64,000 bases of DNA, taken from positions 124,001 through 188,000 of the forward strand of contig NZ_JAENJH010000007.1 of the NCBI RefSeq assembly GCF_016595675.1, in the 5' to 3' direction. The DNA is from Prauserella cavernicola. GTDB lineage: Bacteria; Actinomycetota; Actinomycetes; Mycobacteriales; Pseudonocardiaceae. Position numbers and translations under genes: made by a program. The notes beneath the pieces were generated by a model that saw nothing but the letters and a program-made list of their open reading frames with translations, did no database searches and was not told the DNA's origin. Position 1 is the stretch's first letter; each line of letters starts with the position of its first letter. Below are positions 22,042-46,477 of this stretch, piece by piece.

Positions 22042-22079
22042 TTTCAAATATTGACATGCGGTTCCAACATATCTAGCTT
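22042..22079 (+). promoter_or_regulatory. Promoter of the anion-carrier gene with two 20-bp-spaced operator boxes
   Basis: TTGACA at 22051-22056 and TAGCTT at 22074-22079 are separated by 17 bp, a strong vegetative-type promoter about 130 bp upstream of the carrier start. Two operator-like boxes, TTTCAAATATTGA (22042-22054) and TTCCAACATATCT (22062-22074), begin exactly 20 bp apart and cover the -35 and spacer, so binding should repress. Similar box pairs occur at 24635, 25625 and 43718. Confidence 0.7.
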
Positions 22080-22209
22080 GGGTGACCGAAACCACAGTCC
22101 CGAACGCAGGGGCGAGACGCCGCGACGCCGCGGCGAGGGGGAGCACTGTCACCGCGTGGACGGCGCGGTGAGAAACCCGACCGGTCAATGAGGACGGAGT
22201 CGTGGAATC

Positions 22210-23550
22210 GTGAACGTGCAAGTTCTCTCCTTGCTGGTACTCGTGTGCATGTTCGTACTGGCCTCGTTCCTGTCCATCAACCTGGGCATCCTGGCGCTGG
22301 TCGCCGCGTTCGTGGTGGGCGCCGGGTTCGGCGGCCTGGACGTGGACGCGATCATCGGCGGCTTTCCCGGCAGTCTGTTCATCCTCATCGTGGGCGTCAC
22401 GTATCTCTTCGCGCTCGCGCAGGAGAACGGCACGCTGCAACGCATCATCGACGGTTCGATGAAGCTGGTGGGCAATCGCGTCGCGGCGATTCCCTGGCTG
22501 ATGTTCCTGCTCGCGGCGTTCGTCGCTGCCGCGGGCGCGCTCAGCGCGGCAGCGGTGGCCATCGTCGCGCCGATCGCGTTGCGCTTCGCCGCGCAGCACA
22601 AGGTGAACCCGTTGCTGATGGGACTCATGGTCGTGCAAGGCGCCACGGCGGGCGCGTTCTCGCCGCTGAGCCCGTTCGGCGCCATCGCCAACGGCCTGCT
22701 CAGCGACAACGGACTTCCGCGGGATCCCATGGGGCTGTTCCTCAACAGCATGCTGTTCAACGTCGTGGTGGCGGGCATCGTGTTCGTGGTCTTCGGCGGC
22801 GTGCGGCTGGTGCGCCAGCGTCAGCGCGAGGCGGTCACCGCGAGCACGGGCGGCCCGGGCGCGATGGCCGCGCCCTCGGGCGGGGTCACCACCGGCGACA
22901 CCGGCGACACCGGCGACAACGAGGCCACCGGCGACGAGCCGCCCGCGCCGCCGAGCCGGCGCGACACGCTGCACCAGCTCGCGACGATCGTCGCCATCAT
23001 CGGACTGGTGCTCAGCACCATGCTGTTCGGGCTCGACGTCGGCTTCGTCGCGCTCACCCTGGGCGTGGCGCTGACTCTGTTGTCGCCCGACCGCTACAGC
23101 GAGTGCATCAAGAACCTGCCGTGGGGCGCGGTGCTGCTCGTGTGCGGCGTGCTCACCTATGTCGGCGTGCTGTCGGAACTCGGCACGATCGACTTCCTCA
23201 GCGACCTGCTCACCTCGGGTGGAAACCCGCTGCTGACGGCGCTGGCCGCGTGCTACATCGGCGGGGTGATCTCCGCGTTCGCCTCGACGGCCGGTGTGCT
23301 GGGCGCCTCGATCCCGCTGGCCGTGCCGCTGCTGGATCAGGGCATGCTGCCGATGCTGGGCACGATCAGTGCCATCGGCATCGCCTCCAGCGTCGTCGAC
23401 GTCAGTCCACTGTCGACCAACGGCGCGCTCCTGGTCGCCAACCAGCGCAGCATGGATCCGAAGAAGTTCTTCCGGAGCCTGCTGTTGTGGTCCGTGGTCG
23501 TGATCGCGCTGGCGCCGCTGCTGAGCTGGCTGATCTTCGTGGTGCTCTGA
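22210..23550 (+). CDS. MatC-like anion permease, candidate sulfonate uptake carrier
   Basis: A 446-residue multi-spanning carrier with the same plan as the one at 5007-6371: MatC-type N-terminal half (FPGSLFILIVGVTYLFALAQ near residue 53), a hydrophilic loop at about 205-250, and a second hydrophobic half. The loop carries a TGD-TGD-TGD repeat encoded by 9-bp tandem repeats near 22890-22920. It starts at GTG after a GAGGACGGA-like site. It is convergent with pta and shares the operator pair found at the other sulfonate promoters, so uptake of a C2 sulfonate such as sulfoacetate is the favoured inference. A plain dicarboxylate carrier is the alternative. Confidence 0.82.
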   Translation: MNVQVLSLLVLVCMFVLASFLSINLGILALVAAFVVGAGFGGLDVDAIIGGFPGSLFILIVGVTYLFALAQENGTLQRIIDGSMKLVGNRVAAIPWLMFLLAAFVAAAGALSAAAVAIVAPIALRFAAQHKVNPLLMGLMVVQGATAGAFSPLSPFGAIANGLLSDNGLPRDPMGLFLNSMLFNVVVAGIVFVVFGGVRLVRQRQREAVTASTGGPGAMAAPSGGVTTGDTGDTGDNEATGDEPPAPPSRRDTLHQLATIVAIIGLVLSTMLFGLDVGFVALTLGVALTLLSPDRYSECIKNLPWGAVLLVCGVLTYVGVLSELGTIDFLSDLLTSGGNPLLTALAACYIGGVISAFASTAGVLGASIPLAVPLLDQGMLPMLGTISAIGIASSVVDVSPLSTNGALLVANQRSMDPKKFFRSLLLWSVVVIALAPLLSWLIFVVL

Positions 23551-23571
23551 GCGCCCGTGGACACGGCCGGT

Positions 23572-24612
23572 TCAGGCGGGCCCTCGGTGCGTCTCGCGCG
23601 CGCCGAGGGCCTGGACCCCGCTGATCATCGCCATGATCTCGATGTCGCGGCTGCTGCAGCCGCGCGAGAGGTCGTTGAGCGGCGCGCGCAGGCCCTGCAC
23701 GATCGGGCCGAGCGCGGTCGCGCCGCCCAGCCGCTCGGCGATCTTGTATCCGATGTTGCCCGCGTCGAGGTTGGGGAACACGAGGACGTTGGCCTGGCCC
23801 GCCACCGCCGACCGCGGCGCCTTGGCCTGGGCCACTGTGGACACGAGCGCGGCGTCGAGTTGCAGCTCACCGTCCACGGGGACGCCGGGCAGCCGCTCGC
23901 GCACGAGGCTCGTGGCCGCGCGCACCTTGTCGACCGAATGGTGGCTGGCGCTGCCCTGCGTGCTGAACGACAGCATCGCGACCACGGGCGGTTGCGCGGT
24001 CAGGTCGTGGAACGTGCGCGCGGCGGCCACGGCGATGTCGGCGAGCTGGTGGGTGTCGGGGTCGGGCAGCACGGCGCAGTCGGCGAAGGCGAGTACCCGG
24101 CCGTCGGGCAGCAGCATCAGGAAGGTGCTGCTGACGTAGCGCACGCCGGGGGCGGGTCCGAGCACGCGCATGCCGGCGCGCAGCACGTCGGAGGTGGGGC
24201 GCGCGGCTCCGGCGACGCAGGCGTCCAGTACCCCGGCGCGCAGTCCCGCGACCGCGAGGTGGAGCGGGTCGCCGGCCGCGGCCGCGAGGCGTTCCGGCGG
24301 CTGTCCGGCGAACGCCGCGCGCAGGGCGCCGTCGACGCGCGCGTCGACGGCCAGGTCGGCGGGGTCGAGCAGCAGCTCACCGGGCACCGCGACGCCGGTG
24401 GCACCGACCCGGTCGGGGTCGCCGAGCAGGCGCACGCCGTGCACGCCCTGCTCGTGCAGCCGCAGAGCCGCCTCGATCGCGCGCAGGTCCTCGCCATCGG
24501 CCAGCACGACACGCGTCGCGCTGCCGGCCAGCAGGCTCCGCCAGCGCGCGACGAGCTCGCCCTCCGGTTCGGTGCCGGGCGGAGCCGGCCGGGTCGCGTG
24601 CGCACCACTCAT
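23572..24612 (-). CDS. pta: Phosphate acetyltransferase
   Basis: A 346-residue phosphotransacetylase (acetyl phosphate + CoA to acetyl-CoA + phosphate). Family features are [14 protein letters not shown] near residue 38, [21 protein letters not shown] near 161 (as SSTFLMLL plus FADCAV), [11 protein letters not shown] near 212 and [25 protein letters not shown] near 273 (as [13 protein letters not shown]). It lacks the N-terminal regulatory domain of the long E. coli-type enzyme. No acetate kinase is nearby. In sulfonate catabolism Pta takes the acetyl phosphate released by Xsc, and xsc is present at 37357-39165. It is transcribed divergently from an IclR gene over a region with the shared operator pair. 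Confidence 0.94.
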
Positions 24613-24634
24613 CGGCCCCCGCCCTCCCGGCTTA

Positions 24635-24729
24635 TTTCACAATGTGGCAAGACATTCCAAAGTCGGACGCTAAGGGAGGTTGGCGCCGACTGTCAACGCG
24701 GAGGAGTACGCTGATTCCAACATGTGACA
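24635..24729. promoter_or_regulatory. Divergent pta-IclR control region with repeated operator boxes
   Basis: In the 126-bp gap, TTTCACAATGTGG (24635-24647) and TTCCAAAGTCGGA (24655-24667) start 20 bp apart on the pta side. A further TTCCAACATGTGA (24715-24727) lies immediately before the IclR ribosome site. The repeat TGACA/TGTCA (24725-24729 and 24735-24739) encloses the AGGAGG ribosome site of the regulator gene. Position suggests repression of pta and autoregulation. Confidence 0.65.
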
Positions 24730-24738
24730 GGAGGTGTC

Positions 24739-25542
24739 ATGTCCGCCGAAGATCGTGACGCGCGGCCCGGGGGCGGCTCCGTGGTCGGTGCGCAGACCAT
24801 CTCGCGCGCGTTCGCCGTGCTGCACCTGTTCCGGGAGCACCGCGGCGATCTCGGGGTCGGAGTCATCTCCAAGGAGCTCGGCCTCAACGTGAGCACCACG
24901 CACCGCATCGTGCGCGCTCTGGTCAGCGAGGGGTACCTGGCCCAGAACGAGGACAGCGAGCGGTACTACCTCGGCACCGGCGCGCTGCTGCTCGGCCAGG
25001 CCGCGCACCGCAACTTCGGTCTCGACGTGGTGTACCCGGTGTTGCAGCACGTGGCCGCGAGCACCGGCGAGTCGGTGAACCTCGGCGTGCTGTCGGGGGC
25101 GACCGCCGTGGTCGTGGAGCGCATCGAGTCGGCGGAGCCGCTGCGGTTCACCCAGCCGCCCGGCACCCGGGTGCCGCTGCACGCCTCGTCGATGGGCAAG
25201 GTGCTGCTCGCCTTCAACGGCGAGACCGAGCAGCGCGTGCTGCGCGGTGTGAAGCGGATGGAACGGTTGACTCCCAACACGTTCGCGACCCCGAAGGAGC
25301 TGCGCTCCGAGCTGGAGCACACGCGCGCCCGGGGGTGGAGCATCGACAATGAGGAGCTCACGCTGGGCGTGCGCTGCGTCGGCGCTCCCATCTGTGACGG
25401 CGGCGGGATCGCGCGCGCCGCGATCGCCATCCAGGCTCCCGCCGTGCGCGTGCCGGACGAACGGTTCGACGAGCTCGGGCCGGTCGCGATGCGCGCGGCC
25501 AAGGAGATCTCCGCCCTGTTGCCTCCCGGTCACACCTTCTGA
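24739..25542 (+). CDS. IclR-family regulator, candidate master regulator of the sulfonate island
   Basis: A 267-residue IclR protein. The HTH domain spans about residues 18-80 with recognition segment VSTTHRIVRALVSEG; the effector domain includes GTRVPLHASSMGKVLLAF near 147 and VRCVGAPICDGGG near 213. The ATG at 24739 is chosen because AGGAGG lies 5 bp upstream; the earlier GTG at 24724 would overlap that site. It is flanked by copies of the operator boxes and lies between pta and the aldehyde dehydrogenase promoter. It is clearly paralogous to the IclR at 42829-43614, with the same THRIVRAL-type recognition helix and a VRCVGAPI segment, which sits next to the fourth operator pair. Confidence 0.93.
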   Translation: MSAEDRDARPGGGSVVGAQTISRAFAVLHLFREHRGDLGVGVISKELGLNVSTTHRIVRALVSEGYLAQNEDSERYYLGTGALLLGQAAHRNFGLDVVYPVLQHVAASTGESVNLGVLSGATAVVVERIESAEPLRFTQPPGTRVPLHASSMGKVLLAFNGETEQRVLRGVKRMERLTPNTFATPKELRSELEHTRARGWSIDNEELTLGVRCVGAPICDGGGIARAAIAIQAPAVRVPDERFDELGPVAMRAAKEISALLPPGHTF

Positions 25543-25595
25543 GCCGGCCCCTTCTCGCGTGACCTAACGCACATCGGCGCCCGTGTGACCGGGCG

Positions 25596-25652: not shown

Positions 25653-25749
25653 AACAACTGGTAGGGCTACGCCGGGAACCCGCCGGTCATGTGTGAGTCA
25701 GTCGCAGCGTCGCGACGACGCGCGGCCACGTCAGAAGGGACGCCAGGCC

Positions 25750-27159
25750 ATGCAGACACAGGACGATTCCGCTGCGGATACCGTCGCGGCGCTGGTGGCG
25801 AGAGCCAGCTCGGCGCAACAGGTCTTCGCGGACTACGACCAGCAACGGGTGGACGACGTCGTGGCGGGTATCGCCTGGGCGATCTACCGGCCGGACCGGG
25901 CCCGCGAGCTGGCCGAGCTGGCCGTGCGCGACACCGGGCTCGGCAACGTCGACGACAAGATCGCCAAGAACCAGCGCAAGACGCTCGGCACGCTGCGCGA
26001 TCTGACCGGCGCGAAGTCGGTGGGCGTCATCGCCGAGAACCCCGGCGACGGCATCACCGAGTTCGCGAAACCGGTCGGCGTGGTCGCCGCCGTGTGCCCG
26101 TCCACCAACCCCGCCGCGACCCCGGCGAACAAGACCATGATGGCGCTCAAGGGCGGCAACGCCGTGATCCTCTCGCCCTCGCCCAAGGGCGCGTCCACGT
26201 GCGCGCTGCTCGTGGAGTACTTCCACGCCGAGCTCGACAAGATCGGCGCGCCGCGGGACCTGGTGCAGTACCTGGCGGAGCCGAGCAAGGCGCTCACCCA
26301 CGAACTGATGCGCCAGGCCGATCTGGTGGTGGTCACCGGATCGCAGCGCAACGTCCGCCAGGCCTACAGCAGCGGCACCCCGGCCATCGGCGTCGGCGCG
26401 GGCAACGCGCCGGTGATCGTCGACGCTGACGCCGACGTACCCGCCGCGGCCGAGAAGATCAGGCGCAGCAAGACGTTCGACAACGCCACGAGCTGTTCGT
26501 CGGAGAACTCCGTGCACGTCCACACGGCCGTCTACGACGAGACCTTGCGCGAGCTGGCGGAGCAGGGCGGGTACCTGCTGACGGCGCAGGAGAAGGACCG
26601 CCTCGCCGCGGTGATGTGGCCGGAAGGCAAGCTCAGCGGCGCCATCACCGCGCAGTCGCCAGGCAAGATCGCCGCGCTGGCCGGACTGGACTCCGTCGAG
26701 GCGCGCTCGGCGCGGTTCTTCCTCGTCGAGGAGGACGGCGTCGGCCCGGAGTTCCCGTTCAGCGGCGAGAAACTCTCGGTCGTGCTCACCGTGTACCGCT
26801 TCGACGACCTCGACGGTGCGCTGGAGCGCATCCAGCGGCTGCTGGACTTCCAGGGCGCCGGTCACTCGTGCGGTATCCACACCGCCACCGAGGCACACGC
26901 CCGCACGGTGGCGGAGCGGCTGAGGGTGGCGCGTGTGCTGGTCAACCAGGCGCACTGTTTCGGCACGGGCGGCGGGTTCGACAACGGACTCGGGTTCACG
27001 CTCACGATGGGTGCCGGGACGTGGGCGGGCAACAGCATCAGCGACAACCTCTCGTACCGGCACTTCCTCAACATCACCCGGCTCGCCCGGGTCATCCCGC
27101 CCCGCGTTCCCACCGAGGACGCGCTGTGGGGCCACTACCACGAGACCTACGGGCGGTGA
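25750..27159 (+). CDS. sauS: Acylating aldehyde dehydrogenase, probable sulfoacetaldehyde dehydrogenase
   Basis: A 469-residue CoA-acylating aldehyde dehydrogenase. The nucleotide-binding and substrate regions resemble the AdhE/EutE/SauS group: PVGVVAAVCPSTNPAATPANK near residue 88 (as VCPSTNPAATPANK), GVGAGNAPVIVD near 216, and the catalytic Cys in FDNATSCSSEN near 243-253. The ATG at 25750 follows GAAGGGA. SauS interconverts sulfoacetyl-CoA and sulfoacetaldehyde. That specificity is inferred from the adjoining ADP-forming ligase genes, the nearby pta and the xsc gene 10 kb away; an ordinary acetaldehyde or succinate-semialdehyde enzyme is the alternative. Confidence 0.8.
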   Translation: MQTQDDSAADTVAALVARASSAQQVFADYDQQRVDDVVAGIAWAIYRPDRARELAELAVRDTGLGNVDDKIAKNQRKTLGTLRDLTGAKSVGVIAENPGDGITEFAKPVGVVAAVCPSTNPAATPANKTMMALKGGNAVILSPSPKGASTCALLVEYFHAELDKIGAPRDLVQYLAEPSKALTHELMRQADLVVVTGSQRNVRQAYSSGTPAIGVGAGNAPVIVDADADVPAAAEKIRRSKTFDNATSCSSENSVHVHTAVYDETLRELAEQGGYLLTAQEKDRLAAVMWPEGKLSGAITAQSPGKIAALAGLDSVEARSARFFLVEEDGVGPEFPFSGEKLSVVLTVYRFDDLDGALERIQRLLDFQGAGHSCGIHTATEAHARTVAERLRVARVLVNQAHCFGTGGGFDNGLGFTLTMGAGTWAGNSISDNLSYRHFLNITRLARVIPPRVPTEDALWGHYHETYGR

Positions 27160-27161
27160 CC

Positions 27162-28322
27162 ATGAATCTCTTGGAACACCAGGGAAAGCAGTTGCTCGCA
27201 CAGGCCGGGCTGCCGGTTCCGCGAGGCCGCGTCGCGACCACGCCGGAGGCCGCCGAACAGGCCGCCGCGGTGCTGGGCTGCCGGGTCGCGCTCAAGGCGC
27301 AGGTGCCCGCCGGTAAACGCGGCAAGGCAGGCGGCATCGTCTTCGCCGACGATCCCGCGCAAGCGCGCGAGGCCGCCGCGGGACTGCTCGGCAGTGAGCT
27401 GGGTGGCAACGCCGTCGACGCGGTGCTCGTGGAGCAGAGCGCCGACATCGCCAGGGAGCTCTACGCGTCGGTGCTCAACGACCCCGCCACCAAGGGCCCG
27501 CTGGTGCTGTTCTGCCCGTCGGGCGGCATGGACATCGAGGAGATCGGCGCGCGCGATCCGGAGCTGATCCGCAGGCTGGCGGTGGACATCCGCACCGGGC
27601 TCACCGCCGCGTCGGCACGGGCGCTGGTGGAGGGCCTCGGCCTCGGCGAGCGCGTGGAGGAGCAGGCGAGCGCGGCGCTGCTGACGATGTACCGCCTCTA
27701 CCGCACCGTCGAGGCCGAACTGGTCGAGGTGAACCCGCTGGTGGTCACGTCGGCCGACGACGTCGTGGCGCTCGACGCCAAGATCTCGCTCGACCCCGGC
27801 GCGCTCGGCAGGCACGCGGAGCTGGTCGCCGACCTGGTGCCGGACCAGGACGCCACGGGCACCGAGCTCGAACGGCGGGGGCGTGACCTCGGTCTGCAGT
27901 TCCTGGAGCTCGACGGCGAGGTCGGCGTGCTGGCCAACGGCGCGGGCCTGACGATGACGACGCTGGACGCGGTGACCCACTACGGCGGCACGCCGGCCAA
28001 CTTCCTCGAGATCGGCGGGGACGCCTACACCAAGGCCACCCCTGCGCTGCGGCTCGTGCTCGACAACCCGCGGGTGCGCAGCCTCGTGGTGAACTTCTGC
28101 GGCGCGTTCGCGCGCACCGACGTGATGACCGAGGGTGTGCTCACCGCGATCGAGGAGCTGCGCCCGGAGCTGCCGATCTTCTTCTCGATCCACGGCACGG
28201 GCGAGGAGAAGGCGATCCGGCTCGTGCGCGAGCGGCTCGGCGTGGATCCCTACGACACGATGGACGACGCGGTGCGGGCCGCGATCGCGGCGGCGGCGCC
28301 CGCCGGAAAGGTGGCGGGCTGA
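27162..28322 (+). CDS. Succinyl-CoA-synthetase beta-like subunit, candidate ADP-forming sulfoacetate-CoA ligase
   Basis: A 386-residue ATP-grasp protein with the layout of succinyl-CoA synthetase beta: MNLLEHQGKQLLAQAGLPVP at the start, ALKAQVPAGKRGKAGGI near residue 45, LVEVNPLVV near 190, and the CoA-ligase domain with TLDAVTHYGGTPANFLEIGG near 266. It starts 2 bp after the aldehyde dehydrogenase stop and overlaps the alpha subunit by one base. A housekeeping succinyl-CoA synthetase would not normally sit behind a catabolic dehydrogenase under an IclR operator. An ADP-forming sulfoacetate-CoA ligase built from such subunits has, to my knowledge, been described in Bilophila, and this pair fits that role. 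Confidence 0.8.
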   Translation: MNLLEHQGKQLLAQAGLPVPRGRVATTPEAAEQAAAVLGCRVALKAQVPAGKRGKAGGIVFADDPAQAREAAAGLLGSELGGNAVDAVLVEQSADIARELYASVLNDPATKGPLVLFCPSGGMDIEEIGARDPELIRRLAVDIRTGLTAASARALVEGLGLGERVEEQASAALLTMYRLYRTVEAELVEVNPLVVTSADDVVALDAKISLDPGALGRHAELVADLVPDQDATGTELERRGRDLGLQFLELDGEVGVLANGAGLTMTTLDAVTHYGGTPANFLEIGGDAYTKATPALRLVLDNPRVRSLVVNFCGAFARTDVMTEGVLTAIEELRPELPIFFSIHGTGEEKAIRLVRERLGVDPYDTMDDAVRAAIAAAAPAGKVAG

Positions 28323-29209
28323 TGCTGGTTTCCGAGCGGGACAACGTGGTCGTGCAGGGGCTCACCGGCAGGCAGGGCTCGTTCTGGGCCGAGCGCATGG
28401 CCGAGTGCGGCACGCGAATCGTGGCGGGCGCGAGCCCGGGCAAGGGCGGACGCGAGGTCGGCGGCGTGCCGGTCTACGACTCGGTGGCCGAGGCCGCGCG
28501 GCAGCACCGGCTCGACGTGTCCGTGCTGTTCGTGCCGCCGCTGGCGGTGCGCAAGGCCGCCTGCGACGCCATCTCGGCGGGCGTGCGCAAGATCGTGCTG
28601 CTGACCGAGCACGTGCCGTACCAGGACGTGATGCACGTGCTCGGCGAGGCGCGTGACAGTGACGCGCAGGTGCTCGGCCCCAACACGGCCGGGCTGGTGG
28701 TGCCGGGCGTGGCCTCGGTGGGCATCATGCCCGGCTTCGCGGGCAACATCTTCCGGCCGGGATCGATCGGGGTGATCTCGCGCAGCGGCAGCCTCGGCAC
28801 GCTCGTGGCGCTCAACCTCGTGAGCGCGGGCTACGGGCAGTCGGCGTTCATCGGCATCGGCGGCGACCCCATCCTGGGCACCACGACGCTCGACGCCGTG
28901 CGCGAGCTCGACGCCGACGAGCGCACCGAGGCGGTGGTGCTAGTGGGCGAGATCGGTGGCTCGATGGAGGAGGACGCGGCCGACTACATCGCCACGATGC
29001 GCAAGCCGGTGGTGGCCTTCATCGCGGGACGCTCCGCTCCGCCGGATCGCCGGATGGGGCACGCGGGCGCGATCGTCAGCGCGGGCAAGGGCAGCGGTAC
29101 CTCCAAAGTGGACGCGCTGACGTCGGCGGGCGCCGCGGTGGTGGACCTGCCCAGCGGAATTGGCGACGCTCTGAAGGCCGCGGGAGTCCTGCCGGGCGTC
29201 GCGGTCTGA
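28322..29209 (+). CDS. Succinyl-CoA-synthetase alpha-like subunit, partner of the beta-like ligase
   Basis: A 295-residue CoA-binding subunit. The CoA-binding domain shows VVVQGLTGRQGSFW (residues 9-22) and GASPGKGGREVGGVPVY near 36; the ligase domain has GVISRSGSLGTLV near 150 and the probable phosphohistidine in RRMGHAGAIVS near 241. Length and order match SucD. TGATG coupling to the beta gene indicates a heteromeric enzyme made in equal amounts. The proposed reaction is sulfoacetate (or another short acid) + CoA + ATP to the CoA thioester + ADP + Pi, feeding the dehydrogenase encoded two genes upstream. Confidence 0.8.
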   Translation: MLVSERDNVVVQGLTGRQGSFWAERMAECGTRIVAGASPGKGGREVGGVPVYDSVAEAARQHRLDVSVLFVPPLAVRKAACDAISAGVRKIVLLTEHVPYQDVMHVLGEARDSDAQVLGPNTAGLVVPGVASVGIMPGFAGNIFRPGSIGVISRSGSLGTLVALNLVSAGYGQSAFIGIGGDPILGTTTLDAVRELDADERTEAVVLVGEIGGSMEEDAADYIATMRKPVVAFIAGRSAPPDRRMGHAGAIVSAGKGSGTSKVDALTSAGAAVVDLPSGIGDALKAAGVLPGVAV

Positions 29210-30782: not shown

Positions 30783-30785
30783 GGT

Positions 30786-36298: not shown

Positions 36299-36407
36299 GG
36301 CACCTCCGAAGTGATGACGCACAGTGACGTTAGTTCTGGTTGCGAGCACCCGGTACCAACGTCGATTCTGGGTACTCCCAAGTCAGACTTTGCAGTACCG
36401 TGTGGGC

Positions 36408-39313: not shown

Positions 39314-40132
39314 GTGGAGCTCATCCGCGAGCCCGACCCCGCGGCCCTGAACGGCGAGACCCCGACCCTGCGCCTGTTCTCGCTGCTCGAGCTGATCGCG
39401 AGCAAGGACGAGCTCGTGACCCTGCAGGGCCTGGTCGCGGAGACGGGCATGCCGAAACCGACGCTGCACAGGATGCTGCAACAGCTCGAGAGCGCGGGGC
39501 TGCTCATCAGGCAGGCCGACGGCAGGCACTACGGCACCGGCGTGCGGCTGCGCAGACTGGCCGAGAACCTGTTGCTCAACGCCACCCACTACGGGGCGCG
39601 GCACGCGGTGCTCAAGAACCTCGTCGAGGAGCTGGGCGAGAGCTGCAACATCACCACGCTCTCCGGCAACGAGATCGTCTACCTCGACCGTGTCGAGACG
39701 CCCGAGCCGCTGCGGTTCTACCTGCGGCCCGGTTCGCGCGTGCCGGTGCACTGTTCCGCGAGCGGCAAGATGATCCTGTCGCAGCTGAGCCCGAGCCAGC
39801 GCGCCAAGCTGCTCGCGCACGCGCCGCTCAAGCCCTACACGTCCAAGACCGTCACCGGCCTCGACGCGCTCGAGGAGGAGTTCACCCGCGTGCGCAAGGA
39901 CGGCTTCGCGCTCGACGACGAGGAGTTCCTGCCGGGCCTGGTCTGCGTCGCCGTGCTGGTGCCCGCGCCGTCGGGCCGCTCCAACCTCGCCGTCGCCGTG
40001 CAGGCTCCGGTCATGCGGCTGACCGCCGACAAGGCACTGCACACGCTGCCCGCGCTGCAACGCGCGGCCGAGGCCATCAGCAGGATCGAGGCCGAGGGCG
40101 CCGCCGAGAACACCCAGACCGCCACGTCCTGA
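39314..40132 (+). CDS. IclR-family regulator of xsc and the CobST-like operon
   Basis: A 272-residue IclR protein. The HTH is near residues 12-75 with recognition segment MPKPTLHRMLQQLES; the effector domain includes GSRVPVHCSASGKMILS near 142. The GTG at 39314 follows AGGAGG by 4 bp; an upstream start at 39296 would place that site inside the coding region. It differs in its recognition helix from the other two IclR proteins of the island and so should bind a different operator, probably the GTTYCNGRAAC palindromes between it and xsc. CobS follows after 16 bp, so the regulator and the CobST-like genes likely form one transcript. Confidence 0.92.
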   Translation: MELIREPDPAALNGETPTLRLFSLLELIASKDELVTLQGLVAETGMPKPTLHRMLQQLESAGLLIRQADGRHYGTGVRLRRLAENLLLNATHYGARHAVLKNLVEELGESCNITTLSGNEIVYLDRVETPEPLRFYLRPGSRVPVHCSASGKMILSQLSPSQRAKLLAHAPLKPYTSKTVTGLDALEEEFTRVRKDGFALDDEEFLPGLVCVAVLVPAPSGRSNLAVAVQAPVMRLTADKALHTLPALQRAAEAISRIEAEGAAENTQTATS

Positions 40133-40148: not shown

Positions 40149-41114
40149 ATGGACACCGACCTGCCCGGTGAGCGGATCAGCGTCCGGGACGCCTTCGGGA
40201 TCGACTCGCCGCTGGTGGTGGACGGCTTCCGGGAGCGAACCGAGCACGTGCCGGACGTCGACGAGGCCTACCGGTTCAACCCCGACGTCACGCTCGCGGT
40301 GCTCGCCGGCTTCGCGCACAACCGCAGGGTGCTCGTGCAGGGCCTGCACGGCACCGGCAAGTCCAGTCACGTCGAGCAGGTGGCCGCGCGGCTGAACTGG
40401 CCGTGCGTGCGGGTGAACCTCGACGGTCACCTCGGCAGGCTCGACCTCGTCGGCAGGGACGCGGTGGTGCTGCGCGAGGGCAAGCAGGTCACCGAGTTCC
40501 GCGAGGGCATCGTGCCGTGGGCGCTGCGTGGCCCGGTCGCGCTGGTGCTCGACGAGTACGACGCGGGCAGGCCCGACGTGCTGTTCGTGTTGCAGCGCCT
40601 GCTCGAACGCGAGGGCCGGTTCACGCTGCTGGACCGGAATCTGGTGCTGCGGGCGCATCCGTCGTTCCGGCTCTTCGCCACGGCCAACACCGTGGGGCTG
40701 GGCAACCTCACCGGGCTCTACCACGGCACGCAGCGGCTCAACCAGGGTCAGCTCGACCGGTGGGACGTTGTCGCGTCGCTGAACTACCTGCCCGCCGCCG
40801 ACGAGATCGCGATCGTGCTGGCCCGCGTCCCGGCACTCGACGACGACGCGGGCCGCGCGCTGGTGTCGGCGATGGTCGCCGTCGCCGCGCTCACCAGGGC
40901 GGGCTTTCGCGCGGGCGATGTGTCCACCGTGATGTCGCCGCGCACGGTGATCACGTGGGCCGAGAACACCGGCATCTTCGGCGATCCCGCCACGGCATTT
41001 CGACTGTCCTTTGTGAACAAGTGCGACGAGGCGGAGCATCCGCTGCTTGCCGAGTACTTCCAGCGCTGCTTCGGCCGCGAGCTCCACCCGGCCACGCTCG
41101 CGGCCACGGCGTGA
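40149..41114 (+). CDS. cobS: CobS-like AAA+ ATPase (cobaltochelatase subunit family)
   Basis: A 321-residue AAA+ protein very similar to CobS of aerobic cobaltochelatase. After an N-terminal FGIDSPLVVDGFRER segment come Walker A GLHGTGKS (65-72), NWPCVRVNLDGHLGRLDLVG near 83 (as VRVNLDGHLGRLDLVG), Walker B ALVLDEYDAG (131-140), the GLYHGTQRLNQGQLDRW loop near 184 and FLSFVNKCDE-like SFVNKCDEAEHP near the end. CobS normally works with CobT and CobN to insert cobalt into a corrinoid. No CobN or other cobalamin gene is near. It lies between two IclR regulators and next to xsc, so a different client is likely, perhaps metal loading or remodelling of an island enzyme. It overlaps cobT by 4 bp. Confidence 0.9.
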   Translation: MDTDLPGERISVRDAFGIDSPLVVDGFRERTEHVPDVDEAYRFNPDVTLAVLAGFAHNRRVLVQGLHGTGKSSHVEQVAARLNWPCVRVNLDGHLGRLDLVGRDAVVLREGKQVTEFREGIVPWALRGPVALVLDEYDAGRPDVLFVLQRLLEREGRFTLLDRNLVLRAHPSFRLFATANTVGLGNLTGLYHGTQRLNQGQLDRWDVVASLNYLPAADEIAIVLARVPALDDDAGRALVSAMVAVAALTRAGFRAGDVSTVMSPRTVITWAENTGIFGDPATAFRLSFVNKCDEAEHPLLAEYFQRCFGRELHPATLAATA

Positions 41115-42889
41115 GCGCGCGGCGCGCGGAGGAGCTGGGCGCCGCGACGATCAGGGCGCTCAGCGGCGAGCCCGACGTGCACCTGCGCGGCGGCAGGCCA
41201 CACCGCGGCCGCCGTCCCGTGCCCGCCGCCGCGCCGCACCTGCGCGCGCCCGCCACCGACGCTACCGACGCCGCCTCGTCGTGGCGGGGCGTGGCCGACG
41301 GGGTCGCGCTGCACCTGCTGCGCACCGACGGCGACCTGCACCGCCGGCTGCGCCCGGAGCCCGGGGTGCGGCGGTGGGTGTTCGACGTGCTGGAGCAGTT
41401 CCGGGCGGAGTCGCTCGTGCCCACGACGTTTCCCGGCGTGCGGCGCAACCTCCGGCACCGGCACGAGTCGTGGTCCCGGGCCTGCCACGACGACGGCCTC
41501 ACCGGCACCGCGCGCGGTCTGCTGCTCTACACCGTCGCGCAGGTCTGCCGCGCCCGGCTGACCGGAGAGCCGGTGGTGGCCGAGACCGAGGACCTGATCG
41601 AGCCGACCAGGGCGGCGCTGGCTCCGCTGCTGGGCACGGACCTGGCGGGGCTGCGCCGGACCCTGGCCGACCAGACCGCGTTCGCCGAGCACTCGCGCGC
41701 GCTCGCCGAGCGGGTCGCCGCCCTGCTGGAGCGGGACGATCCCGGAGCGGCGGACGAGGAGACCGGTGACGAGCCGGACTCGCTGCTGGCGTCGCTGACC
41801 GAACCCGGCCAGCCGCCCGGTGACGGCGACGGGGGAGTGGCGGCGCGGGCGGGTGCTCCGGAAGCGGCGTCCAGCGAGCGGCGCTACCGCGTGTTCACCA
41901 CCGCCTACGACCGCGAGACACGCGTCGCCGCACTCGTGCGGCCCGTGGCGCTGGCCGAGTATCGCGCCCGCCTGGACCGGCGCATCGAGCGCCAGGGTGT
42001 GGCCGTGGCGAGGCTCGCGCGCGAGCTGACGGCGCTGCTCGCCGCACCGTCGCGCGACGGCTGGGACGACGCCAGGGAAGAGGGACACGTCGACGGCAGG
42101 GCGCTCGCGCGGCTGATCAGCTCGCCGACCGAGCGCAGGCTGTTCCGCGTCGAACGCGACCAGCCGGTGGCCGACGTGCTCGTGAGCTTCCTGATCGACT
42201 GCTCGGGCTCGATGAAGCAACACGCCGAACCGGTCGCGATGCTCGTCGACGTCCTCGCCCGCGCACTCGACCTCATCGGCGCCGAGAGCGAGGTCCTTGG
42301 CTTCACCACCGCCGCGTGGCACGGCGGTCGGGCGCGCCGGGACTGGCTGCGGGCGGGACGCCCCGCGCGGCCCGGCAGGCTCACCGAGCGCGCGCACCTC
42401 GTGTTCAAGGACGCCGGCACGCCGTGGCGGCGAGCCCGCCCCGCCATCGCGGGTCTGCTCAAGTCCGACCTCTTCCGTGAGGGCGTCGATGGCGAGGCCG
42501 TGGCGTGGGCCGCCGAGCGCGCGAGAGCCCGGGACGTGGCTCGCAGGCTGGTGTTCGTGGTGTCGGACGGCAGCCCGCACGACGGCGCCACCGCGCTGGC
42601 CAACGGGCAGCGCTACCTCGACGACCATCTGAGCGAGGTGGTCGGTGCGCTCGAACAGGAGGGCGCGGTGGAGGTCTACGGACTCGGCGTGGGGCTGGAC
42701 CTGAGCTCGTACTACCGCCGGTGCGTGGTGCTCGATCCGGCCGAGCGCACCGGGTACCGGCCGTTTCGCGACGTCCTCGGTCTGGTCGCGAGACCCACCG
42801 CTGACCCGGCACCAGTACCATCCGGCGCATGGAGCACGCGAAGGCGCCGGCGGGAACTCAGGCCATCGGGCGCGCGCTCGCCGTGCTGA
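41111..42889 (+). CDS. cobT: CobT-like MIDAS/VWA protein (cobaltochelatase subunit family)
   Basis: A 592-residue partner of the CobS-like ATPase. The N-terminal 250 residues are poorly conserved, with an acidic stretch of the kind seen in CobT near 215-260. The C-terminal VWA domain (about 355-570) has the MIDAS motif DCSGS (363-367), LGFTTAAWHGGRARRDWL near 396, GTPWRRARP near 437 and VSDGSPHDGATAL near 482, all CobT-like. A GTG start overlaps the cobS stop. Its 3' end overlaps the following IclR gene by about 61 bp, longer than other overlaps here, so the last 20 or so residues are probably not functionally important. No CobN is present. Confidence 0.87.
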   Translation: MSARRAEELGAATIRALSGEPDVHLRGGRPHRGRRPVPAAAPHLRAPATDATDAASSWRGVADGVALHLLRTDGDLHRRLRPEPGVRRWVFDVLEQFRAESLVPTTFPGVRRNLRHRHESWSRACHDDGLTGTARGLLLYTVAQVCRARLTGEPVVAETEDLIEPTRAALAPLLGTDLAGLRRTLADQTAFAEHSRALAERVAALLERDDPGAADEETGDEPDSLLASLTEPGQPPGDGDGGVAARAGAPEAASSERRYRVFTTAYDRETRVAALVRPVALAEYRARLDRRIERQGVAVARLARELTALLAAPSRDGWDDAREEGHVDGRALARLISSPTERRLFRVERDQPVADVLVSFLIDCSGSMKQHAEPVAMLVDVLARALDLIGAESEVLGFTTAAWHGGRARRDWLRAGRPARPGRLTERAHLVFKDAGTPWRRARPAIAGLLKSDLFREGVDGEAVAWAAERARARDVARRLVFVVSDGSPHDGATALANGQRYLDDHLSEVVGALEQEGAVEVYGLGVGLDLSSYYRRCVVLDPAERTGYRPFRDVLGLVARPTADPAPVPSGAWSTRRRRRELRPSGARSPC

Positions 42890-43614
42890 AGCTGCTCGCC
42901 GAACGCTCCGGCGAACTGGGCATCACCCGGATCGCCGAGCATCTCGGGCTCTCGCCCGGCACCGCGCACCGGATCGTGCGCGCGCTCGTGGCCGACGGCC
43001 TGGTGGCGCACAACCCCCGGACGGACGCCTACTACCTCGGCGCCGGGACCATCCTGCTCGGCCAGGCGGCGCAACGCGGCTTCGGTCTGGACCGGGCGCT
43101 GCCGGTGCTCGAGCAGATCAACGCCGAGACGCAGGAGTCGGTGAACCTCGTGGTGCGCGAGGGCGGCGAGTCGGTGGTGATGCTGCGCGTGCAGTCGACG
43201 CTGCCGCTGCGGTTCGAACAGCACCCCGGCGCCCGGTTCCCGCTGTACACGACGGCGTCCGGCAAGGCGATCCTGGCGTACTCGGACGACGTGGAGGACT
43301 ACGTCGCCGCGCTGCCGCGGCACCTGCGGAAGATCACCGCGCGCACGCTGGGCACGCCCGCGCAGCTCGCCACGCAGCTCGAGGAGATCCGCGAGCGCGG
43401 CTACAGCATCGACGAGGAGGAGAACGTCGCCGGTGTGCGCTGCGTCGGCGCTCCGATCCTCGATGCCGACGGCAGAGCGCACGCGGCACTCGTGATCCAG
43501 GTACCCGCGGTGCGGATGCCCGCACGCAGAGTCAGAGAGCTCGGTGCTCGCACGGTCACGGCCTCAAAGGAGATCGCGCAGTTCGTGCCGGTGGACCGCA
43601 TGATGTCCCGCTGA
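42829..43614 (+). CDS. IclR-family regulator, paralogue of the one at 24739
   Basis: A 261-residue IclR regulator. The HTH has SPGTAHRIVRALVADG near residues 43-58, nearly the same recognition helix as the IclR at 24739-25542; both also share YYLGAGTILLGQAA-like and VRCVGAPI segments, so they are close paralogues. The ATG lies inside the 3' end of the CobT-like gene, and the conserved domain begins a few residues later, so a much later start is unlikely. It precedes the HOT-type alcohol dehydrogenase, whose promoter has the same 20-bp-spaced boxes as the pta and sauS regions. The two regulators may compete for or cooperate on those sites. Confidence 0.91.
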   Translation: MEHAKAPAGTQAIGRALAVLKLLAERSGELGITRIAEHLGLSPGTAHRIVRALVADGLVAHNPRTDAYYLGAGTILLGQAAQRGFGLDRALPVLEQINAETQESVNLVVREGGESVVMLRVQSTLPLRFEQHPGARFPLYTTASGKAILAYSDDVEDYVAALPRHLRKITARTLGTPAQLATQLEEIRERGYSIDEEENVAGVRCVGAPILDADGRAHAALVIQVPAVRMPARRVRELGARTVTASKEIAQFVPVDRMMSR

Positions 43615-43710
43615 GTACAGGGCTGTTAGCGGTCTCGAAGATCCACTGTGGACTGACGGTGGCCGGATTTCGGTGGTCGCCGACCCCTTCTCAATTCGCT
43701 CCGTCGCCCC

Positions 43711-43751
43711 TATCGTATTTCACATAGTGGTGTTAGCCCCCACATAGTGTC
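43711..43751 (+). promoter_or_regulatory. Control region of the alcohol dehydrogenase/MHS transporter operon
   Basis: TATCGT (43711-43716) is the best -10 candidate, with only a weak -35 near 43688. Immediately downstream CACATAGTG occurs at 43721-43729 and again at 43741-43749, exactly 20 bp apart; the fuller first box is TTTCACATAGTGG (43718-43730). Placement over the likely transcription start indicates repression by the flanking IclR protein or its paralogue at 24739. Confidence 0.7.
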
Positions 43752-43769
43752 AACGATGGGAGCCCGTCA

Positions 43770-45044
43770 ATGTTGCCGGAGAACCAGCCCAACGAACAGG
43801 TGTTCACCTGGGCCGCGCCGCCGCTGAAGTTCGGGCCGGGCGCGGTCGACGAGATCGGCGCGGAGGTGGCGGCGACCGGCGCCTCCTCCGCGCTGGTGAT
43901 CACCGACGCCGGAGTGCGGGAGACGGGTTTTCCCGACCGCATCAGGGAAAGCCTGGTGCTGGCCGGGGTCAAGGCCGAGGTCTTCGACGGCGTCGCGATC
44001 GAGCCGACCGACCACAGCATCGCCGCGGCGGTGGACTTCGCGCGGGAACAGCAGTGGGACTGCTTCGTCGCCGTGGGCGGAGGTTCCGCGATGGACACCG
44101 CCAAGGCGGTCAACCTGCTCACCACGCACCCCGGTGAGCTGCTCGACTTCGTGACGCCGCCGATCGGCGCGGGCACGGCGCCGTGGCTGCCGCTCAAACC
44201 GCTGATCGCGGTGCCGACCACCGCCGGAACCGGGTCCGAGTCCACCACGATCTGCGTGGTGGACCTGCTCGACCTGCACCTCAAGGCCGGGGTGAGCCAC
44301 CCTCGACTGCGGCCCTCGCTGGCGGTGGTGGACCCGCTCGCCACGGTCAGCCTCCCGGCGCAGGTGACGGCGGCCAGCGGCATGGACGTGCTCTCCCACG
44401 CGCTGGAGAGCTACACGAGCATCCGCTACGACGCCAAACCCGCGCCGCAGGACCCGATGCGCAGGCCCGCGTTCTGCGGTTCCAACCCGATCAGCGACGT
44501 GTGGTGCGAGATGGCGCTGCGGCTCGTCGGCCGGAGCCTGCGCAAGGCGGTGTGCAACGGCAGGGACCTCTCCGCCCGCACCGACATGGCGCTCGCCTCC
44601 ACCTACGCGGGAACGGGATTCGGCAACGCCGGGACGCATCTGCCGCACGCCAACGCCTATCCCGTCGCGGGTGCGGTGCGCGACTACCGCGCCGAGGGCT
44701 ACCCGGAGATGCCGATGGTCCCGCACGGCCAGGCCGTGTCGGCGACGGCGGCGGCGGTGTTCCGCTGGACCTACCCGTCCGACCCGCAACGGCACCTGGA
44801 GGCCGCGACCCTGTTGTCGGGGCGGACGTTCACCGCCACCGACGGCGCGGAGGCGCTGCCGCACGTGCTCACGGAACTGATGAGCGACATCGGCATGCCG
44901 TCCGGGCTGCGTAGCTTCGGCTACACCGAGGACGACCTGGACACGCTCACCGACGGCACGCTGAAGCAGACGAGGCAGCTCGCCGTGGTGCCCAGGCCGC
45001 TCGACCGTGGCGCGGTGACCGAGATCTTCGAGCGGTCGCTCTGA
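43770..45044 (+). CDS. HOT-type iron-dependent alcohol dehydrogenase, candidate isethionate dehydrogenase
   Basis: A 424-residue group III (iron) alcohol dehydrogenase most like hydroxyacid-oxoacid transhydrogenase (ADHFE1/HOT). Features are FTWAAPPLKFGPGAVDEIG near the start, AVGGGSAMDTAKAVNLL near 106, PTTAGTGSESTT near 151, the iron-ligand region SGMDVLSHALESYTS near 208, GFGNAGTHLPHANAYP near 285 and VPHGQAVS near 319. In this context oxidation of a 2-hydroxyalkanesulfonate such as isethionate to sulfoacetaldehyde is the favoured role. The related iron enzymes known as sulfoacetaldehyde reductases act in reverse. A 4-hydroxybutyrate-type activity is the alternative. The ribosome site is weak (GGGA). 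Confidence 0.85.
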   Translation: MLPENQPNEQVFTWAAPPLKFGPGAVDEIGAEVAATGASSALVITDAGVRETGFPDRIRESLVLAGVKAEVFDGVAIEPTDHSIAAAVDFAREQQWDCFVAVGGGSAMDTAKAVNLLTTHPGELLDFVTPPIGAGTAPWLPLKPLIAVPTTAGTGSESTTICVVDLLDLHLKAGVSHPRLRPSLAVVDPLATVSLPAQVTAASGMDVLSHALESYTSIRYDAKPAPQDPMRRPAFCGSNPISDVWCEMALRLVGRSLRKAVCNGRDLSARTDMALASTYAGTGFGNAGTHLPHANAYPVAGAVRDYRAEGYPEMPMVPHGQAVSATAAAVFRWTYPSDPQRHLEAATLLSGRTFTATDGAEALPHVLTELMSDIGMPSGLRSFGYTEDDLDTLTDGTLKQTRQLAVVPRPLDRGAVTEIFERSL

Positions 45045-45060
45045 AGCCGGGGGAGCAGCC

Positions 45061-46431
45061 ATGAGTGACTCTGTGAGCGCGGGACAGACCGCGCCCGACC
45101 GCCGCGAGGTGCGCCTCGTCGTGGCGTCGAGTGTCGTCGGCACCACCGTGGAGTGGTACGACTTCTTCCTCTACGGCACCGCCGCGGGCATCATCTTCAA
45201 CCGGTTCTACTTTCCCAGCGACGACCCGCTCGTGGGCACGCTGCTGGCGTTCGCGACGTTCGCGCTGGGGTTCGTGGCGAGGCCGGTGGGTGGACTGATC
45301 TTCGGCCACATCGGCGATCGTATCGGTCGCAAGAAGACACTCGTCGCGACGATGCTGATCATGGGTGTGGCCACGTGTGCCATCGGGTTGATCCCCACCT
45401 ACGACAGTATCGGCACCGCAGCGCCGATCCTGCTCGTGCTGATGCGGCTCGCGCAGGGTGTCGCGATCGGTGGCGAGTGGGGCGGTGCCGTGCTGATGTC
45501 GGTGGAGTACGCGCCCAAGGGCAGGCGCGGGCTCTACGGCAGCTTCCCGCAGCTGGGCCTGGCGCTGGGACTCGTGCTCGGCACGGGTGTCTTCGCCGGG
45601 CTGGGCGCCATGATGGACGAGGCCGCGTTCCTGTCGTGGGGCTGGCGGATCGCGTTCCTGCTGTCCGCGGTGCTGGTGATCGCGGGCATGGTGATCCGGC
45701 TCAAGGTGATGGAGACCCCGGCGTTCCGTCAGCTCGAGCAGACCGAGGCCAAGGCGACCGTGCCCGCGCTGGAACTCGTGCGCAACAAGCTCTCGCGCAG
45801 GCACGTCCTGCTGGGCATGGGCAGCAGGTGGATCGAGGGCGTCGCGTTCAACACGTGGGCGGTCTTCTCGATCTCCTTCGGTGCGGGAACGCTGGAGATG
45901 CCGCAGCAGACCCTGTTGATCTCGGTCATGATCGCGGCGTTGATGATGGTCGTGTTCATCCCGCTGTTCGGCAGACTGTCCGACACGGTGGGCCGTCGAG
46001 CGCTGTTCGGCTGGGGCGCCCTGATCGCGGGTGTGGTGGCTTACCCGGCGCTCGCGCTGCTCGGCACCGGTACGCCGGTGCTGGCGGGGGTCGGCCTGGT
46101 GCTGGCGCTGGGTGTGCTCTATCCGATGATGTACGGCCCGCAGGCGGCGTTCTACTCGGAGATGTTCCCCGTCAACGTCCGCTGCACGGGAATCTCGTTC
46201 GTCTACCAGTTCTCCGGCATCTTCGCGTCGGGCCTCACGCCGCTGGTGCTGTCCTACCTCGTCGGCCTCGACAACGACGGCTACTCGCTGGTGGCGATCT
46301 ACCTGGTGGTGGCGGCGGTGATCAGCGCGGTGTGCACGTTCGCGGTGCGCAAGCAGGATCTCCTGCGGATCGCGGAGGCGGAACAGTCCGATCTGGACGC
46401 TCGAGCGGCCACCACGCCGACGAGCGCGTGA
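45061..46431 (+). CDS. MHS-family metabolite:H+ symporter
   Basis: A 456-residue major-facilitator transporter of the metabolite:H+ symporter (MHS) subfamily, with VVGTTVEWYDFFLYGTAAG near residue 22, the loop motif GHIGDRIGRKKTL near 82 and MRLAQGVAIGGEWGGAVLM near 127. Twelve hydrophobic segments are expected. A GGGGGAGCAG ribosome site precedes the ATG, 16 bp after the dehydrogenase stop, so the two are cotranscribed. It probably imports the alcohol dehydrogenase substrate; MFS carriers of this sort have been assigned to isethionate and sulfoacetate in other bacteria. A strong hairpin follows the gene. Confidence 0.9.
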   Translation: MSDSVSAGQTAPDRREVRLVVASSVVGTTVEWYDFFLYGTAAGIIFNRFYFPSDDPLVGTLLAFATFALGFVARPVGGLIFGHIGDRIGRKKTLVATMLIMGVATCAIGLIPTYDSIGTAAPILLVLMRLAQGVAIGGEWGGAVLMSVEYAPKGRRGLYGSFPQLGLALGLVLGTGVFAGLGAMMDEAAFLSWGWRIAFLLSAVLVIAGMVIRLKVMETPAFRQLEQTEAKATVPALELVRNKLSRRHVLLGMGSRWIEGVAFNTWAVFSISFGAGTLEMPQQTLLISVMIAALMMVVFIPLFGRLSDTVGRRALFGWGALIAGVVAYPALALLGTGTPVLAGVGLVLALGVLYPMMYGPQAAFYSEMFPVNVRCTGISFVYQFSGIFASGLTPLVLSYLVGLDNDGYSLVAIYLVVAAVISAVCTFAVRKQDLLRIAEAEQSDLDARAATTPTSA

Positions 46432-46440
46432 CGACCGAGC

Positions 46441-46477
46441 GCCGGCGAACCCGACCATCCGTGTCGGGTTCGCCGGC
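46441..46477. terminator. Bidirectional hairpin terminator
   Basis: A perfect 15-bp inverted repeat (46441-46455 against 46463-46477; arm GCCGGCGAACCCGAC) with a 7-nt loop starts 10 bp after the MHS transporter stop and lies 42 bp from the end of the convergent gene. It marks the right end of the sulfonate island. Confidence 0.9.

Follow-up and report, generated by a model that had tools for sequence, protein, structure and literature searches.

A CobS/CobT-like AAA+/VWA gene pair accompanies sulfoacetaldehyde acetyltransferase in a conserved C2-sulfonate island of Prauserella cavernicola

A CobS/CobT-like gene pair lies beside xsc

Sulfoacetaldehyde acetyltransferase (Xsc) is a hub of taurine, isethionate and sulfoacetate breakdown. 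Gene calling combined with NCBIfam and Pfam scans of a 64,000-nucleotide stretch of the Prauserella cavernicola genome (the window; contig NZ_JAENJH010000007.1, positions 124,001 to 188,000; genome G000, 7.2 Mb) delimited a C2-sulfonate island at 22210-46431, in which xsc is accompanied by genes for a CobS-like MoxR-type AAA+ ATPase and a CobT-like VWA protein. This pair (40149-42889), absent from the gene list of a first-pass annotation of the same DNA, is the chief interest of the island. Judging from sequence comparison, we favor with reasonable confidence a self-contained C2-sulfonate island in which the pair would form a MoxR AAA+/VWA machine devoted to the Xsc step, with Xsc itself as its most likely client. 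The pair accompanies Xsc so faithfully across genomes that it probably keeps this enzyme working. The three genes are:

37357-39165, minus strand: Xsc, sulfoacetaldehyde acetyltransferase (TIGR03457, 1064 bits, curated cut-off 676, positions 2-579 of 579)
40149-41114, plus strand: CobS-like MoxR-type AAA+ ATPase, proposed Xsc-activase motor (TIGR01650, 498.3 bits, below the cut-off of 558.55)
41111-42889, plus strand: CobT-like VWA protein, proposed Xsc-activase adaptor (TIGR01651, 302.1 bits, below the cut-off of 759.05; Pfam CobT and CobT_C)

The pair lies between xsc and the gene of an iron-dependent alcohol dehydrogenase (Fe-ADH), and its two genes overlap by 4 bases. It has the make-up of a MoxR AAA+/VWA system, namely an ATPase with Walker A and B motifs, a partner with a metal-ion-dependent adhesion site (MIDAS), and adjacent genes. 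Walker A and B are intact in the CobS-like protein and the MIDAS DxSxS is intact in the CobT-like protein, as judged by what we take to be the consensus motifs. The metal site of the VWA domain reads DCSGS in 97% of 76 xsc-linked CobT proteins compared to DNSGS in canonical CobT (proteins shorter than 450 residues were left out of these column counts). A frameshift as the cause of the low CobT identity between congeners was rejected because the alignment is nearly full length in one frame; by its sequence, the CobT-like protein is simply fast-diverging.

CobT occurs together with one type of Xsc

The co-occurrence of CobT and Xsc was determined genome by genome, scoring Xsc at E≤1e-150 and CobT at E≤1e-12, a threshold that very divergent CobT copies could escape. 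Among 297 genomes of the family Pseudonocardiaceae, Xsc was found in 31 (11 of 46 genera) and the CobT_C domain in 29 (9 of 46 genera). CobT was present in all 29 genomes with a subtype-1 Xsc (above 1000 bits), on the same contig and at most about 5 kb away, and in none of the other 268; the 266 family genomes without Xsc all lacked it. Two genomes, G153 and G286, hold two Xsc types, and there CobT lies beside the subtype-1 copy only. In a sample of 296 genomes from the phylum, CobT was detected only in P. cavernicola itself.

The Burkholderiales show a similar distribution. Xsc was found in 24 of 200 genomes, eight of which score above 1000 bits, and seven of these eight contain CobT on the same contig, in six of them at most about 4 kb from xsc and in the seventh about 28 kb away. 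Three of the other 192 genomes have CobT: G725, which carries another Xsc type on a different contig, and G761 and G810, which have no Xsc. Thirty genomes from the named loci described below, including 12 of the 14 that lack a nearby CobS, were also searched, and CobT was found somewhere in 27 of them. Some of the named loci coincide with family genomes (e.g., L028/G285 and L062/G286); with each genome counted once over all samples, CobT is present in 61 of 66 genomes with subtype-1 Xsc.

A feature of Xsc diagnostic of subtype 1 was considered and rejected. Thirty-nine alignment columns split subtype 1 from six outside rows; among the latter, L181 is not an Xsc but a remotely related thiamine diphosphate enzyme. 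The C-terminal DYV reads EYT in G610 and NYV in L044, both subtype-1 genomes without CobT, yet is kept in the other three such genomes, so that it gives no clear signal.

The pair is linked to xsc in several arrangements

Among named genomes, the 80 best Xsc loci (named loci) were compared. CobS was found near xsc in 66, whereas a homologue of the phosphate acetyltransferase Pta was found in 59. When only the 58 loci with at least 9 kb on both sides of xsc were considered, the counts were 51 and 47, respectively. Matches with less than 50% coverage were scored as absent; L081, in which CobS is cut by the contig end, is thus a miss. CobS lies upstream of xsc on the opposite strand in 41 loci, downstream on the opposite strand in 24 and downstream on the same strand in one. 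Since three arrangements exist, the pair and xsc do not form one frozen operon.

CobS was present irrespective of the route by which the substrate would enter: all 23 loci with SauS or an isethionate-type module have it, as do 26 of the 27 with TauY and 26 of the 39 that carry no such marker. Loci with two route markers were counted in both groups; markers were assigned at cut-offs of 45-55% identity, and the names TauY, SauS and Ise rest on homology to annotated or otherwise known genes. All seven records of proteobacterial plasmids with subtype-1 Xsc carry CobS within about 6 kb of xsc. Three Rhodococcus plasmids carry xsc without CobS on the plasmid, a count that covers the plasmids and not the chromosomes.

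The pair is set apart from cobaltochelatase

The domain architecture of the pair is that of the cobaltochelatase subunits CobS and CobT. One explanation would therefore be that it is a genuine part of a cobaltochelatase, riding in xsc clusters and serving B12 synthesis together with CobN, which we regard as highly improbable. The CobS-like protein is indeed 63% identical to Sinorhizobium CobS, and the best matches of the pair in the PDB are the solved CobS and CobT structures (CbbQ reaches only 38.6 bits). However, both proteins score below the NCBI equivalog cut-offs for cobaltochelatase (498 versus 559 bits for CobS, 302 versus 759 for CobT). A tree of 92 CobS proteins groups seven canonical copies and one urease-linked copy in one clade (support 100/100) apart from the 82 xsc-linked copies, with two remote copies further out. 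A copy counted as canonical on the basis of its annotation, its CobT score or its clade. Several branches of the tree are long, and neither the unity of the xsc-linked copies nor an older role was read from it. Duplicates and loci L093-L118 were removed before the tree and the column counts were made, and so were proteins with internal stops, CobS and Xsc hits that covered less than 80% of the query and, before any counts, CobT hits that covered less than 30% of it.

Separation from CobN was seen as well. In a CobN-family search of 51 genomes, 46 of which have CobT, a CobN-family gene above the cut-off was present in 36 of the 46, a number that favors a cobaltochelatase and is an upper bound since the Pfam model also covers Mg-chelatase. 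The remaining ten CobT genomes have no CobN above the cut-off, and four of the five CobT-less genomes searched (G003, G081, G098, G784 and G610) have CobN. The CobN of P. cavernicola lies on a different contig from the island, and the 19 kb that surround it contain neither CobS nor CobT. No Rfam riboswitch reached the gathering threshold in the window, near this CobN or in six xsc loci (only two tRNAs were found there), and riboswitch control was rejected for the regions scanned. The scores below the cut-offs and the dissociation from CobN led us to reject the pair as cobaltochelatase; xsc-linked CobS falls outside the canonical clade and is tied to xsc rather than to CobN.

CobT without CobN is also found in the control Caulobacter, and alphaproteobacterial cobST adjoins genes for a J-domain protein and BolA in L190, L192, L156 and L157, a chaperone-like setting. 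Both observations make it likely that CobST pairs in general have further roles.

Other CobST-like pairs were encountered outside this context. On a Pandoraea oxalativorans plasmid (L158, 3377-10835), a CobS/CobT pair directly follows ureG beside the genes of urease, an unrelated enzyme. A third, remote CobT-like lineage exists in Burkholderiales (L196, G340:C2:1936318; L197, G329:C20:47092; L195, G761:C77:178291), with CobT_C scores of 94-100 bits and CobS 36-38% identical in L195 and L197. In Caballeronia (L155, 6237-7205), a gene for a GTP-binding protein, possibly CobW-like by name only, abuts a CobST-like pair and has homologues in eight of the xsc loci compared.

Xsc as the proposed client

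MoxR/VWA pairs activate Rubisco (CbbQO) and nitric oxide reductase (NorQD), according to PMC9976466 and PMC13036017. The pair described here shares with these systems the combination of a MoxR AAA+ ring and a VWA adaptor; it differs in its ATPase, which is of CobS type and not of CbbQ or NorQ type, and in the proposed client, a thiamine enzyme. The genes of CbbQ/CbbO and NorQ/NorD lie near those of their client enzymes. We know of no MoxR/VWA machine whose client is a thiamine enzyme. By analogy to CbbQO and NorQD, the ATPase ring with its VWA adaptor would open or remodel Xsc, with the result that thiamine diphosphate could be loaded or replaced, or a dead-end adduct removed.

Genome G081 provides a natural control: SauS, both subunits of the adjoining ligase, SoeA, SoeBC, SulP and Pta are present, the Xsc is divergent and CobT is absent. 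In addition, 12 family genomes contain a SoeA-like enzyme, the candidate sulfite-oxidizing molybdoenzyme, and have neither xsc nor CobT. Subtype-1 Xsc is the common factor that remains across the entry routes, G081 and the genomes with the molybdoenzyme only, which together with the MoxR/VWA precedents points to Xsc as the client.

Two further explanations have to be weighed. The pair could serve another protein of the pathway, for instance the sulfite-oxidizing molybdoenzyme, which we consider unlikely. CoxD/CoxE serve carbon monoxide dehydrogenase, and aerobic Xsc users must handle sulfite. MoxR/VWA pairs have also been described to facilitate metal insertion (PMC13036017, PMC9976466). A role as maturation factor of the molybdoenzyme was nevertheless rejected because of the 12 family genomes named above; G081, with SoeA, SoeBC and an Xsc of another type, lacks CobT, and the occurrence of the pair does not depend on the entry route. 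The pair may also act on an unlinked client. Less probable again is that pair and Xsc are functionally unrelated and that a mobile cluster containing both spread horizontally, the pair hitchhiking. Proteobacterial Xsc proteins are up to 86% identical to that of the window, which suggests transfer of the cluster between phyla. Selection is favored instead by the three arrangements, by distances that range from about 0.2 to 28 kb and by almost unbroken retention over many genera, and pta, a real partner of xsc, is linked less often than the pair.

Several observations weigh against Xsc as a client that always needs the pair. Two family genomes with Xsc, G081 and G098, have no CobT, their only Xsc being divergent (834 and 822 bits). 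The phylum sample contains four other genomes with Xsc, three of them with divergent forms (753-834 bits) and no CobT, and G610 has a subtype-1 Xsc (994.7 bits, 79% identical) without CobT. In Burkholderiales, 15 of 16 genomes with an Xsc of 883-980 bits lack CobT and the sixteenth has an unlinked copy, and two alpha-type Xsc loci show no pair nearby, in a view of the locus that does not cover the chromosomes. Altogether, five of 66 genomes with subtype-1 Xsc are without CobT (G784, G610 and the genomes of L044, L077 and L087, at least three of the five being metagenome-assembled genomes), and the pair is therefore not indispensable. Fisher tests gave P = 7e-41 for the family and 4e-10 for Burkholderiales, values that are overstated since relatedness was ignored. 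In the 36 CobT genomes with a CobN-family gene the pair may have a second role in B12 synthesis. On the side of the pathway, the molybdoenzyme of the island scores above no NCBIfam model cut-off (best match PhsA, 160.6 versus 694 bits).

We tentatively suggest that subtype-1 Xsc, which occurs in many Actinobacteria, beta- and gammaproteobacteria, depends on an AAA+ activase of its own that shares ancestry with the CobS/CobT cobaltochelatase; this could well prove wrong, and a sulfite-damaged cofactor is one possible reason for such a dependence. Sulfite cleaves thiamine. The sulfite released in the active site of Xsc could thus cleave the cofactor, and the machine would eject the damaged molecule so that a new thiamine diphosphate can take its place. 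Consistent with this idea, thiG was found within 10 kb of xsc in four of the 80 named loci (L031, L040, L054 and L069), three of which also have thiS. The four loci belong to Aromatoleum (two loci, congeners), Janthinobacterium and Thauera, and thiS-thiG also borders the island of Rhodococcus DK17 (L152). ThiG beside xsc is a weak hint at an extra demand for thiamine. The ThiG positions (ThiS is present in four of the five) are:

L031: 12937-13995
L069: 13029-14094
L040: 7823-8632
L054: 15163-15723
L152: 151-1144

Genes and conservation of the island

The remaining genes of the island are:

22210-23550, plus strand: MatC-type (CitMHS clan) anion carrier, candidate sulfoacetate importer (Pfam MatC_N 157 bits, CitMHS 98 bits)
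23572-24612, minus strand: Pta, phosphate acetyltransferase, acetyl phosphate to acetyl-CoA (NF007233, 312.9 bits, cut-off 310; Pfam PTA_PTB)
24739-25542, plus strand: IclR-type regulator 1, ahead of sauS (Pfam IclR_C, HTH_IclR)
25795-27159, plus strand: SauS, CoA-acylating sulfoacetaldehyde dehydrogenase (NF047625, 802 bits, curated cut-off 600)
27156-28322, plus strand: ligase beta subunit, SauC/SqwK-like candidate for an ADP-forming sulfoacetate-CoA ligase (SucC-like, 344.5 bits, below the cut-off of 370)
28322-29209, plus strand: ligase alpha subunit, SauD/SqwL-like candidate (SucD-like, 331 bits, below the cut-off of 353)
29232-30695, minus strand: SulP anion transporter with STAS domain, candidate sulfate/anion carrier (Pfam Sulfate_transp, 245 bits)
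30786-31895, minus strand: Mrp/ApbC iron-sulfur carrier ATPase (Pfam ParA (NUBPL), 293 bits)
31889-34723, minus strand: SoeA-like molybdopterin oxidoreductase, candidate catalytic subunit of sulfite dehydrogenase (Pfam Molybdopterin, Fe4S4 and dinucleotide-binding domains)
34754-36298, minus strand: SoeB-SoeC-like fusion of a 4Fe-4S ferredoxin part and an NrfD membrane anchor (Pfam Fer4_11, NrfD)
36402-37325, plus strand: LysR regulator adjoining the molybdoenzyme genes (Pfam LysR_substrate)
39314-40132, plus strand: IclR-type regulator 2, divergent from xsc (Pfam IclR_C)
42829-43614, plus strand: IclR-type regulator 3, start uncertain, open frame overlapping the end of the cobT-like gene (homology and translation)
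43770-45044, plus strand: Fe-ADH, candidate isethionate dehydrogenase (Pfam Fe-ADH)
45061-46431, plus strand: major facilitator superfamily (MFS) carrier, IseU-like candidate isethionate importer (TIGR00883, 415 bits, below the cut-off of 443)

This inventory agrees with that of the first-pass annotation, whose named genes were recovered no more than about 170 bases from the positions given there; its four regulators were found at 24739-25542, 36402-37325, 39314-40132 and 42829-43614, and its two kinds of uptake carrier are the MatC-type and the MFS protein by Pfam and NCBIfam. It had also proposed that the genes would take sulfoacetate and an isethionate-like alcohol to acetyl-CoA and sulfate, which is supported by the equivalog matches and by the independent clustering of the modules. 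Its call for the same gene set in related genomes was answered by two members of the genus, G001 (L013 and L210) and G002 (L177 and L211), in which the island is syntenic with gene order kept; modules of it recur beside xsc elsewhere. The synteny shows that the island is no chance assembly: it is a real, conserved C2-sulfonate unit. Xsc was not found in the third congener sampled, G003. The system, which would combine two entries in an actinomycete, is less unusual than the first-pass annotation held: sauS, ligase, xsc and pta are already present on public Rhodococcus plasmids, and SauS together with an isethionate-type module was seen beside xsc in four of the 80 named loci. The reading as C2-sulfonate dissimilation, drawn from gene content, is well supported but of a known sort.

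The MatC-type carrier is retained at the island edge in both G001 and G002. Homologues of IclR regulator 1 are also located near sauS in L175 and L213, and in L013 and L177 the position of regulator 3 is held by regulator 1 homologues (50%). Regulator 2 has an equivalent position in most actinobacterial xsc loci compared, and the LysR regulator neighbors the molybdoenzyme genes in G285 and G286 too. The island is adjoined by a hydantoinase A/B pair, a class III CoA-transferase and an enoyl-CoA hydratase (15264-21600), an apparently unrelated catabolic cluster.

Predicted entry of sulfoacetate and isethionate

Sulfoacetate would enter via the MatC-type carrier, be activated by the SauCD-type ligase and be reduced by SauS to sulfoacetaldehyde. 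The SauS translation contains what we take to be the active-site cysteine motif. The ligase pair is SucC/SucD-like, below the cut-offs for succinyl-CoA synthetase, and adjoins SauS; its alpha subunit keeps GHAGA, presumably the phospho-histidine motif. An xsc-proximal set of SauS and both ligase subunits is also carried by L026, G257, G081, G286 and the plasmid of Rhodococcus sp. DK17 (L152). The sulfoacetate system of Cupriavidus necator includes SauS, SauT and SauU. In Bilophila, an ADP-forming ligase, SauCD, works with SauS (review PMC12890257). The island shares with the system of Bilophila wadsworthia (Liu X. et al. 2023, as cited in PMC12890257) a SauS equivalog and an adjoining two-subunit SucCD-type ligase, a likeness in gene content; here the host is an actinomycete, and the predicted fate of sulfoacetaldehyde is cleavage by Xsc rather than the path through isethionate and IseG.

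Isethionate or a close alcohol would enter via the IseU-like MFS carrier and be oxidized by Fe-ADH to sulfoacetaldehyde. The dehydrogenase had been called a hydroxyacid-oxoacid transhydrogenase (HOT) type, which we rejected: no model or chain of that name was among its matches in NCBIfam, Pfam and PDB (whether these libraries hold a HOT model was not checked), and its best models are choline dehydrogenase GbsB and, close behind, sulfoacetaldehyde reductase SarD, both below the cut-off. A known Xsc route has a flavin enzyme, IseJ, as isethionate dehydrogenase and an MFS protein, IseU, as carrier (PMC6453916). The island shares with that route an MFS carrier whose homologues adjoin GMC dehydrogenases near xsc. 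We assume that IseJ belongs to the GMC family. Homologues of the carrier of the window were found near xsc in 24 of the loci compared (23 distinct places, L028 and L159 being one contig), with a GMC dehydrogenase beside 17 of them and an Fe-ADH beside seven; none had both and none had neither. GMC genes without the carrier were seen in six further loci and Fe-ADH without it in three (L168, L171 and L183). Because one or the other dehydrogenase adjoins every carrier homologue and never both, Fe-ADH looks like a replacement of IseJ by gene context, occupying the place that the GMC dehydrogenase has in the proteobacterial route. The opposite direction, in which Fe-ADH would be a sulfoacetaldehyde reductase for the export of isethionate like SarD/TauF and the island would have a single entry, is possible but rather doubtful: the match to the SarD model (208 bits, cut-off 700) is close behind that to GbsB, whereas the proteobacterial carrier homologues adjoin the GMC dehydrogenase, the kind used for isethionate oxidation.

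Cleavage of sulfoacetaldehyde and oxidation of sulfite

Xsc with phosphate would split sulfoacetaldehyde into acetyl phosphate and sulfite, and Pta would convert acetyl phosphate to acetyl-CoA. The sulfite would be oxidized by the SoeABC-like molybdoenzyme, with the electrons going to the quinone pool, and SulP would move the anion. SulP homologues lie beside xsc in G081 (48%) and G595 (33%, weak).

The molybdoenzyme set, read as cytoplasmic, consists of a molybdenum subunit, an iron-sulfur part and an NrfD-type anchor, in the domain plan of SoeABC, and no twin-arginine signal was seen by eye at the N-terminus of the molybdenum subunit. SoeABC of Allochromatium vinosum (cited in PMC5373536 and PMC4378227) likewise has a molybdenum subunit without visible signal peptide, an iron-sulfur subunit and a membrane anchor; in the island the latter two are fused and an Mrp/ApbC gene is attached, the likeness being one of domain plan and not of direct SoeA alignment. 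An Mrp/ApbC gene lies beside the molybdoenzyme in Rhodococcus jostii RHA1 and Natrinema as well. In R. jostii RHA1, relatives of the operon have TusA and DsrE genes as neighbors; in G081 and G595 the neighbors are Xsc of other types. The SoeA-like subunit was found in 24 of 263 family genomes, 12 of which have xsc, compared to 31 of 297 overall (Fisher P = 9e-7, calculated conservatively as if the 263 included all 31 genomes with xsc).

Divergent actinobacterial Xsc types (51-60% identical) are present in L175, L176 and L183. SoeABC-like genes lie beside L175 and L183, and the three genomes have no CobT.

Implications

We found no paper in the open-access literature that ties a CobS/CobT-like pair to xsc, and none there on Xsc and sulfoacetate in Actinobacteria or Rhodococcus. 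If one major type of Xsc needs an AAA+ partner, this would explain the CobS/CobT genes of xsc organisms that have no CobN. Many annotations as cobaltochelatase would then be corrected, and Xsc made without its partner may have been assayed under the wrong conditions. The island itself is an actinomycete system that unites both entry routes, Xsc and sulfite oxidation for joint study, and the pair turns a gene family annotated for B12 synthesis into a directly testable question about Xsc.

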